Positions 60,810 to 62,600 of a stretch of 64,000 nt of DNA are shown one piece after another (the first letter of the stretch is position 1; every line of letters begins with the position of its first letter). The translations under genes and the position numbers were made by a program. The DNA lies in NCBI GenBank assembly GCA_016183615.1, contig JACPEG010000009.1, forward strand, positions 1 through 64,000. Reading direction: 5' to 3'. The DNA comes from Betaproteobacteria bacterium (GTDB taxonomy: Bacteria; Pseudomonadota; Gammaproteobacteria; Burkholderiales; UBA6910). The notes under the pieces were generated by a model. That model searched no databases. It had not been told where the DNA came from and worked only from the letters and a program-made list of their open reading frames with translations.

Positions 60810-61229
60810 CTAATGCCACCCTTCCCTGGGCGGGATCGGAAGCGGGTAGACGCTAATGCCTTCCTCGGCCAAATCGTCCGCCTCTGCCTTCGAGGCCACG
60901 CCCCGAATATTGCGCGCTGCCGCTTCTCCGTAATGGATGCGCCGCGCTTCGCCGGCAAATTCGGCGCCCATGTCTTCGGCGTTGGCAAGAACGTATTCCA
61001 CCAATGCCTGCACCAGCGCCTTCTTGTTGACCGGAACCTCCGATTGCTGCGGCCGGTCACCGACTTCCCGGTTGATGCGCGATGCGGAAGGAAGTCTCTC
61101 GACGATCGAGTCGCCGCACACCGGGCAAGTCACCGCACCACTGTCCTTCTGCGCGACAAAACCCTCGGCCGAGGGAAACCACCCCTCGAACCGGTGCTGG
61201 GCGGAACAGATCAAGTCGTAGACGATCAT
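60810..61229 (-). CDS. DUF1178-family protein
   Basis: This 139-residue protein begins MIVYDLICSAQHRFEGWFPS and has VTCPVCGDSIVERLPSA, giving a C...CxxC putative zinc ribbon related to FmdB. A helical EFAGEARRIHYGEAAARNIRG segment and the C-terminal GISVYPLPIPP follow. The family is common and uncharacterised in proteobacteria. It lies 41 bp downstream of tRNA-Leu on the same strand. Confidence 0.88.
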   Translation of the reverse strand: MIVYDLICSAQHRFEGWFPSAEGFVAQKDSGAVTCPVCGDSIVERLPSASRINREVGDRPQQSEVPVNKKALVQALVEYVLANAEDMGAEFAGEARRIHYGEAAARNIRGVASKAEADDLAEEGISVYPLPIPPREGWH

Positions 61230-61270: not shown

Positions 61271-61587
61271 TGGTGCCCGGAGCCGGAATCGAACCGGCAT
61301 GGGCTGTTTAGGCCCGAGGGATTTTCTTCGCACTTCGGCTTTCGCCGCCCGCTGGTGGCGGTTCGTGCGCCGGACTATGCCTTCGCCATAGCTCCGCGTT
61401 ACCGAGCGACAGGCGCCCCCCGTCTAGTCTCTACACCTTCCCCGCACGAAACGGGGCTTGGCTCGGCGTTGGCATCAGTTACCGCTCTGTAAGCGTTCGC
61501 CGAATTTGAGGGGTTTCATCCGAGGCGTTTCCGCCCCGGCGCCCAAATTTTCAAGTCCCTTGTGTCTACCAATTTCACCATCCGGGC
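61271..61587 (-). tRNA. tRNA-Leu (TAA) interrupted by a group I intron
   Basis: The 5' exon (61553-61587) begins GCCCGGATGGTGAAATTGG and ends AGGGACTT. The 3' exon (61271-61325) begins AAAATCCCTCGGGCC and ends CCGGGCACCA. Joined, they give the acceptor GCCCGGA/TCCGGGC, the stem AGGGA/TCCCT, the anticodon TAA, a long class II variable arm (CGGGCCTAAACAGCCC) and the T arm CCGGTTCGATTCCGG. This leuZ equivalent sits in the conserved pgsA-glyW-cysT-leuZ order. Confidence 0.95.
61326..61552 (-). ncRNA. Group I intron in tRNA-Leu(UAA), Azoarcus/cyanobacterial type
   Basis: The 227-nt insertion begins after the anticodon U and ends with G, as required for group I splicing. The core matches the Azoarcus tRNA-Ile intron: CAAATTCGGCGAA, GCCAACGCCGAGCCAAGC, GAAGGTGTAGAGACTAGACGG and CTATGGCGAAGGCATAGTCC. 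A P2 stem CCGGGGCG/CGCCTCGG is capped by GAAA. P3 CCCCTC pairs with GACGGGG. A GGG near the 5' end could be the guide pairing with exon CTT. The intron has no internal open frame. Confidence 0.93.
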
Positions 61588-61600
61588 ATTTCTGGAACCT

Positions 61601-62128
61601 TTATCTGGCGGAAACGGAATACCTTCTCCGAACCGGTCGTGTCCCAAGTCGACGCTTTACGGAAATATTCTTGCCTCGATAAGTCGGTGTCAGCGCGTGG
61701 CAGTTGGGACAAATCAGCCGCAAGTTGCGCAACTCGTGGTTGAAACCATTTCCGTCCAAATGATCGAGCTCGAGAGGGATCGGCCTTCCCAGCCACTCCG
61801 CAAGTCGACAGACTGCGCATTTTGCTTCCAGGATGCCTTCCTGGATAAGGCGCCGCCGTAGCTTGTTGCTCTGGTAATTCGACCCGTTTCTGAGGATTTT
61901 CTCCAGAGGCATCTTGGGCGCATGCGGATTCGTTTTTCCCCTGAGATGCCCCTGGCCGGTCCAGTGCGATGTGTTTAACCCGAGCTCTCTTATTCGAACC
62001 TGCACGGTGACATAATTTCCCCCCGCCGCTCTCAATCCAAGCGCCTTCAGAACCTGCGCCACGCTCCGCGCCTCAATCACGGCGCGAGTAAGATCTTCAT
62101 CCGACCAGGTTTTTCGTCTGCCAGACAT
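61601..62128 (-). CDS. HNH endonuclease
   Basis: This 175-residue protein has an N-terminal helical HTH-like region (WSDEDLTRAVIEARSVAQVL) and a C-terminal HNH nuclease. The zinc cysteines are C104/C107 (AKCAVC) and C140/C143 (CPNCH), with catalytic D122/H123 in LDHLDGNG and N135. The layout matches freestanding phage or homing-type HNH endonucleases. A TATAAT box lies just upstream of the ATG. Its stop is 13 nt before the intron-containing tRNA-Leu, on the same strand, and it separates tRNA-Cys from tRNA-Leu. It may be the mobility factor of the intron (inference). Confidence 0.87.
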   Translation of the reverse strand: MSGRRKTWSDEDLTRAVIEARSVAQVLKALGLRAAGGNYVTVQVRIRELGLNTSHWTGQGHLRGKTNPHAPKMPLEKILRNGSNYQSNKLRRRLIQEGILEAKCAVCRLAEWLGRPIPLELDHLDGNGFNHELRNLRLICPNCHALTPTYRGKNISVKRRLGTRPVRRRYSVSAR

Positions 62129-62303
62129 CGTTGCAATTATAGCAGACTTATTGGAATATGCTCTCAATGCGTCTTCCAATACTGTTTCCGAAACGAAGGT
62201 GCAGGCACCATTCGCGGATGAGTGCATCAACTTTCAGACAAGGCACTCGTGATGACTTCATCCTCCGCGTCCAAAAAACGCGAAGCCTAGCCTAGGGAAG
62301 AAT

Positions 62304-62377
62304 TGGAGGCGGGGGTCGGAATCGAACCGGCGTCCACGGCTTTGCAGGCCGCTGCATAACCACTCTGCCACCCCGCC
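62304..62377 (-). tRNA. tRNA-Cys (GCA)
   Basis: The 74-nt cloverleaf includes CCA. The acceptor pairs GGCGGGG with CCCCGCC, the anticodon loop reads CTGCAAA (GCA), and the T arm has GGTTCGATTCC. It is the cysT position of the pgsA-glyW-cysT-leuZ block. Confidence 0.97.
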
Positions 62378-62456: not shown

Positions 62457-62532
62457 TGGAGCGGGAAACGAGTCTCGAACTCGCGACCTCAACCTTGGCA
62501 AGGTTGCGCTCTACCAACTGAGCTATTCCCGC
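62457..62532 (-). tRNA. tRNA-Gly (GCC)
   Basis: The 76-nt cloverleaf includes CCA. The acceptor pairs GCGGGAA with TTCCCGC, the D arm has AGCTCAGTTGGTAGAGC, and the anticodon loop reads TTGCCAA (GCC). It lies 68 bp after pgsA. Confidence 0.97.
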
Positions 62533-62600
62533 GGAAAACGAAGTCAGCATTATATTTGCGGGTGCCAATTTGTCAAGAAAAACGGCGGTTTTTCCAGCGA

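Follow-up and report, generated by a model that had tools for sequence, protein, structure and literature searches.

The group I intron of tRNA-Leu(UAA) is the textbook ancient intron common to cyanobacteria and plastids. Proteobacterial cases exist as well, and Vepritskiy and colleagues reportedly described one in a deep-subsurface gamma-proteobacterium in 2002. Further tRNA-Leu(UAA) introns have been published in Thiomargarita and Beggiatoa (PMC4853749). None of the 242 plastid trnL intron entries in a 2007 survey had an open reading frame (ORF), and for a tRNA intron the survey lists only the PD-(D/E)XK enzyme I-Ssp6803I (PMC1995217), an endonuclease assigned to the tRNA-fMet intron of Synechocystis (Bonocora and Shub 2001; table in PMC1995217). 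Collaborative homing, which pairs a free-standing homing endonuclease gene (HEG) with an ORF-less intron, is known from phages, where cyanophage psbA and T7-like phages are the cases cited (Zeng 2009; Bonocora and Shub 2009, via PMC10448857 and PMC3984707). According to a 2014 review, every group I intron seen in phages up to then was in a protein-coding gene, despite the many tRNA genes that phages carry (PMC3984707).

The window, the whole 64-kb stretch of betaproteobacterial DNA that we analyzed, holds a tRNA-Leu(UAA) gene split by a group I intron and, directly beside it, a gene for an HNH endonuclease (Table 1). The preliminary description of this DNA characterized the intron in terms that partly hold, and made no mention of the adjoining HNH gene, which is the informative part of the locus.

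Table 1. Features of the tRNA-Leu(UAA) locus in the window, by position.
Feature	Coordinates	Strand	Basis
DUF1178 gene, downstream flank, syntenic in intronless sister genus	60810..61229	-	Pfam PF06676; synteny with L159
tRNA-Leu(UAA) 3' exon, A35 to encoded CCA	61271..61325	-	ARAGORN
Group I intron, 227 nt, no ORF of its own, starts after U34 and ends in G	61326..61552	-	Rfam RF00028, covariation, nhmmer
P7 3' strand TAGTC and following bases	61370..61377	-	covarying pseudoknot
P7 5' strand GACTA and following bases	61420..61429	-	covarying pseudoknot
P6 hairpin with terminal loop; the loop is the HNH insertion place in relatives	61440..61456	-	split intron matches
Internal guide region TTTGGGCGCC	61538..61547	-	read from sequence
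tRNA-Leu(UAA) 5' exon, acceptor stem to U34	61553..61587	-	ARAGORN intron mode
HNH endonuclease gene, 175 aa, intact	61601..62128	-	PHROG_10822, invariant residues, AlphaFold, relatives
tRNA-Cys(GCA), upstream neighbor, conserved Gly-Cys-Leu cluster	62304..62377	-	same order in relatives
tRNA-Gly(GCC)	62457..62532	-	ARAGORN
Perfect sigma-70 promoter match TTGACA-16-TATAAT before the tRNA cluster	62549..62576	-	consensus match only

A group I intron in the tRNA-Leu(UAA) gene

ARAGORN in intron mode called a tRNA-Leu(taa) on the minus strand (61271-61587) and placed a 227-nt intron after its position 35; without that mode it called no tRNA there. The junctions (CTT/GAAAA...GAAG/AAAATCCC; 3' junction GAAG/AAAA) read as had been described, with the gene split after the anticodon U by an insertion ending in G. 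A covariance-model search with cmscan matched the full Intron_gpI model (RF00028) at 61362-61563 with 42.9 bits (E 2.7e-9), which falls under the Rfam gathering score of 50 bits for this family; it was the sole match both in the window and in the whole assembly, and in nhmmer the intron scores 168 bits. Covariation supports the assignment. An alignment of 16 related introns yielded P2, P3, P4, P5, P6, P7, P8, and P9 with a P9 extension, in which 96.3% of cells are paired. Both partners have changed in 33 of the 49 pairs, P3 and the pseudoknotted P7 among them, the latter in three versions (GACTA/TAGTC, GACTT/AAGTC, and GAGCA/TGCTC). Because this covariation spans 16 introns and 0 of 500 shuffles matched it, the intron lies far beyond chance; free-energy folding of the intron alone was uninformative (z -1.6), and covariation decided the matter. 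As in group I introns generally, the 5' splice follows a U paired with G, the last intron base is G, and the P3/P7 pseudoknot and P4-P6 are kept by compensatory change. The G of the guide region forms the U34.G wobble of P1 and is invariant in 16 of 16 introns, while the UUU of the same region is able to pair with AAA of the 3' exon (P10).

We found no second tRNA-Leu(UAA) in the 94%-complete genome, where the next best match is a tRNA-Leu(CAA); as the split gene is the only copy found, splicing is probably needed. The intron is real and very probably functional, and it appears to be of the small tRNA type, subgroup IC3.

Automatic calls of such introns need care. ARAGORN in intron mode miscalled three loci (L019, L023, and L024) that are tRNA-Ile(CAU) with an intron after U33 and not Leu, and it assigned phage Leu(UAA) introns to Tyr, Phe, or Ser; exons were therefore inspected by eye. 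Automatic splicing and rescanning returned ambiguous anticodons because the boundaries slide by a few bases. After exon inspection, 10 of the 31 genomes with a group I match among 300 genomes of the order, including that of the window, carry it in tRNA-Leu(UAA), and the other group I introns of the order sit in tRNA-Ile(CAU) and further tRNAs. Those in further tRNA genes (L002-L009, L011, L013-L015, L025, L027-L030), several of them at or near the anticodon, are apparently more diverse than the usually cited Ile, Leu, and Arg cases, with ARAGORN identities unreliable there.

In a tree that covers introns of the same order, that of the window is placed with those of Leu(UAA) (SH-aLRT 89, weak support, not starred) and apart from the Ile(CAU) and other-tRNA introns; the intron most similar to it, at 75% identity, is also in a tRNA-Leu(UAA) gene (L017). 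The window intron is thus an ordinary member of an already known group of proteobacterial Leu(UAA) introns. Given the 10 cases in the order and the published precedents, the novelty that the preliminary description saw in the combination of intron body and insertion site is not supported. Its view of the intron as an Azoarcus-type body in a cyanobacterial site likewise finds no backing in the weak grouping with Leu(UAA) rather than tRNA-Ile introns, the comparison with Azoarcus being indirect.

An HNH gene next to the split tRNA

The HNH gene lies 13 nt upstream of tRNA-Leu(UAA) on the same strand, between tRNA-Cys and tRNA-Leu. Its product matches the HNH endonucleases of PHROG_10822 (E 2.6e-47), and the residues invariant in the family, Cys104/Cys107/Cys140/Cys143 (zinc) and His123-Asn135-His144, are intact. 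The Pfam families HNH_3 and HNH match 30/33 and 27/33 relatives, respectively, with the window copy by itself under the Pfam cut-off. In the AlphaFold model (mean pLDDT 82) the HNH domain comes after a helical N-terminal part, and the top Foldseek matches are mostly HNH nucleases, all of them weak, with none below E 0.001; a PDB sequence search found nothing. Differences between the window gene and its relative L033 amount to 0.31/0.29/0.69 at codon positions 1/2/3, and this concentration of substitutions at third positions points to purifying selection. A C-terminal extension of ~40 residues found in the three nearest relatives is absent from the window protein, so this copy could be inactive or altered.

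The sequence TCTGCTATAAT comes just before the HNH ORF in the window (62128-62155, minus strand) and also before the HNH copy in L032, a genome from another family. The HNH gene may have been inserted behind an older tRNA-Leu promoter.

A sister genus (G092, locus L159) preserves the empty site, with tRNA-Gly, tRNA-Cys, 188 nt, an intronless tRNA-Leu, and DUF1178 in intact synteny and with neither the intron nor the HNH gene at the locus. Because both are absent there, both were gained in the window lineage or both were lost in the other.

Genomic position of the HNH family

We searched 669 genomes, 300 from the order and 369 from the class, and found 10 strong HNH relatives besides the window copy, one of which (G228) lies at a contig edge and was left out. 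All 9 assessable relatives (9/9) are at tRNA-Leu(UAA), where the chance for a random gene to fall within 200 nt is ~2.5e-4. In the order, the HNH gene is upstream of an intron-bearing tRNA-Leu(UAA) in G022 and of an intronless one in G070 and G249; elsewhere it lies inside the intron in antisense (G393, G424, G477, G562, and G539), or, in decayed form, immediately past the 3' end of an intronless tRNA-Leu(UAA) (G542). The loci of 7 weaker matches in the same genomes, which are other HNH genes (E 5e-4 to 2e-6), contain no tRNA. The intron also persists without the HNH gene, since such a gene is missing from the surrounding 1.5 kb or so in 8 of the 10 genomes of the order that have a Leu(UAA) intron; co-occurrence in the order (2/10) is too small to prove an association, and it is position that serves as evidence.

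Scanning 84,980 species with the HNH alignment returned 40 loci: 25 at a UAA tRNA, 13 at another tRNA (Thr UGU, Leu UAG, Leu CAA, or Arg CCU), and 2 cut by a contig end. The family thus has addresses besides tRNA-Leu(UAA), some of its members lying next to other tRNAs. The hosts on record include Mycolicibacterium isolates, Acidobacteria, Candidatus Fermentibacteria, Ectothiorhodospiraceae, Bacteroidetes, and Lachnospiraceae metagenome-assembled genomes (MAGs), some of whose names may reflect mis-binned or phage-derived contigs. Among viral contigs, 75 of the best 80 matches, a set ranked by similarity and not a random sample, are at a UAA tRNA, and more distant phage relatives stand beside other tRNAs in tRNA arrays; in phages generally, tRNA arrays have HNH genes around them. 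In plasmids there was a single weak match.

Diverged relatives also lie directly upstream of tRNA-Arg(CCU) and tRNA-Thr(UGU) in L066, L068 (Agromyces), and L069-L074 (mostly Anaerolineae), and tRNA-Arg(CCU) is another known intron-bearing bacterial tRNA. Some UAA-anticodon tRNAs beside the HNH gene do not have the long variable arm that a tRNA-Leu should show (L038-L040, L042, L052, L118, L106, L110, L150, and many viral loci); such tRNAs occur in phages and in Mycobacteriaceae loci. In the two HNH-bearing loci of the order with an intronless tRNA-Leu (L032 and L034), the anticodon-stem pair 30:40 is C:G, and it is G:C in 11 HNH-free relatives and in the intron-bearing tRNA-Leu of the order. 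We considered this pair as a mark of resistance to cutting and took it as a hint at most, because phage tRNAs vary too freely.

Arrangements of HNH gene and intron

Three arrangements recur, all of which also occur in phages: the HNH gene lies beside an intronless tRNA, beside an intron-split tRNA as in the window, or inside the intron. The second, with the gene next to an ORF-less intron in its presumed target tRNA, is found in the window, in L033, and in phages. Positions inside the intron, as indicated by split matches of the intron and by the sequence of the exons, fall in two places. In 14 relatives (L043-L045, L047, L050, L063, L086, L118, L131, L200-L204) the gene occupies the terminal loop of P6, with the intron halves matching on either side of it at model positions ~100/108, and is usually antisense, with a sense copy in L086. 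In L053, L055, L058, and L152 it occupies the P1 loop in sense. There the gene leads directly into the guide sequence; since the 5' splice site is in P1, this is an unusual position for an insertion.

Across many phyla and phages, members of the family adjoin tRNA-Leu(UAA) on either side and on either strand, and intron-internal copies occur in five sampled gammaproteobacterial families. On the HNH tree, a quick tree with many weak branches, the architecture changes at least 20 times, including between close phage relatives that differ in the presence of the intron, and the window copy clusters, with weak support, with free-standing rather than intron-internal copies. Stop codons interrupt the intron-internal genes of G393, G539, and G562, and decaying copies with stops are seen both beside and inside tRNA-Leu (L032/L037, L200, L203-L205, and L213).

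Phage tRNA genes contain group I introns that score up to 69 bits with Rfam, which contradicts the 2014 statement that the phage group I introns seen by then were all in protein-coding genes (PMC3984707). Seven of the phage introns share 88-98% identity among themselves. The intron of L106, whose tRNA is without the long variable arm, is 89-94% identical to other phage introns, with exons at 71-78% and HNH DNA at 75-77%; to those of L121, L135, L122, and L153 it is 93-94% identical, with tRNA exons at 71-75%. The intron has been transferred between unlike tRNA genes in phages, and this near-identity supports the horizontal movement that the preliminary description had proposed for such introns.

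Proposed mechanism and alternatives

We suggest that the intron is probably spread through collaborative homing by an HNH homing endonuclease family directed to tRNA-Leu(UAA), and that it has taken up the HNH gene on two or more occasions. The members of this family would be homing endonucleases addressed to tRNA-Leu(UAA) genes, most likely cutting the intronless gene in or close to the anticodon. When the break is repaired from a donor copy, the nearby HNH gene would be carried in by co-conversion, together with the intron where one is present, and the intron, by splitting the target, would protect the tRNA gene from cutting. The HNH copy of the window may be active at present. The intron would have to splice for the cell to have tRNA-Leu(UAA). 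In other lineages the HNH gene would have entered the intron itself, in the P6 or P1 loop, to give a conventional mobile intron.

In one alternative, homing is intronless: the HNH protein, by cutting in tRNA-Leu(UAA) or beside it, would spread only its own gene, and the intron would have arrived separately and share the locus by coincidence. We consider this unlikely, though it has points in its favor: most phage and several chromosomal members adjoin intronless tRNA genes, most Leu-intron genomes of the order are without the HNH gene, and gain or loss of the intron beside closely related HNH genes is frequent. Entry into the same intron at no fewer than two places and in several phyla, however, needs the two elements to meet repeatedly, and their joint absence from the syntenic sister locus also argues against separate arrival.

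The history could also have run in reverse, with the HNH gene first inside the intron and later expelled or replaced outside it by HEG turnover, which would make the window a decaying, formerly mobile intron. Such turnover has been proposed as an alternative to collaborative homing for phage loci (PMC10448857), and it would suit the internal copies of the gammaproteobacterial families, some of which are decaying. The frequency of HNH genes beside intronless tRNA genes, widespread in phages, speaks against this reversal, as does the weakly supported clustering of the window copy with free-standing ones, and we regard it as quite improbable.

It is very improbable that the intron was inherited vertically or derives from tRNA-Ile, an Azoarcus-type intron having moved into the cyanobacterial site with the HNH gene as a bystander: all these introns do belong to one broad tRNA-intron family, but both the grouping and the best identity of the window intron are with Leu(UAA) introns. 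That the HNH gene landed here by chance, tRNA genes being insertion hot spots that attract mobile elements in general, is hardly credible given its specificity for UAA tRNAs, its placement inside their intron, and its occurrence on both sides and strands across many phyla and phages.

If collaborative homing by the HNH family is accepted, it would extend this process from phage protein genes to tRNA genes. The trnL intron has been reported without an endonuclease, its mode of movement left open, and the HNH family would supply a concrete, testable engine, with loci that offer intermediate stages in the assembly of mobile introns. More tentatively, phages might carry the HNH gene and the intron and seed bacterial chromosomes, where the loci could preserve the steps from a free-standing cutter to one beside the intron, as in the window, and then to one inside it; the 'ancient, immobile' trnL intron might then be the residue of a mobile element with its engine still findable, a picture that we hold as a possibility somewhat short of even odds.

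Comparison with known systems

We found no report of the association of HNH with trnL in the open-licence literature, and its novelty is provisional. The cyanobacterial and plastid trnL introns resemble that of the window in gene, U34/A35 site, small ribozyme, U.G splice-site pair, and P3-P9 core; they differ in that the window host is a proteobacterium with an adjoining HNH gene, whereas plastid trnL is reported to be ORF-less. The tRNA-Leu(UAA) intron that Vepritskiy and colleagues reportedly described in a gamma-proteobacterium, which is not known to have an associated endonuclease, shares gene, intron type, and presence in Proteobacteria with the window. Those of Thiomargarita and Beggiatoa are likewise alike in these respects, and unlike the window they have no associated endonuclease described (PMC4853749).

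Among endonucleases, the phage HNH enzymes of PHROG_10822 belong to the same protein family as that of the window and are without a target assignment. T4 SegB, a member of the GIY-YIG family, is similar as a homing endonuclease of a tRNA region, and differs in family and in not being known to go with an intron. I-Ssp6803I is similar in going with a group I intron and in targeting the anticodon region of a tRNA, which we presume for the window HNH; it differs in its PD-(D/E)XK fold, in its tRNA, and in being encoded inside the intron. A parallel in arrangement is the collaborative homing of cyanophage psbA and T7-like phages, as those cases are relayed in the reviews, with a free-standing endonuclease gene beside an ORF-less intron in the presumed target. 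Those systems concern phage protein genes and are biochemically tested, whereas the one described here concerns a tRNA gene, spans bacterial chromosomes and phages, and is proposed from sequence.
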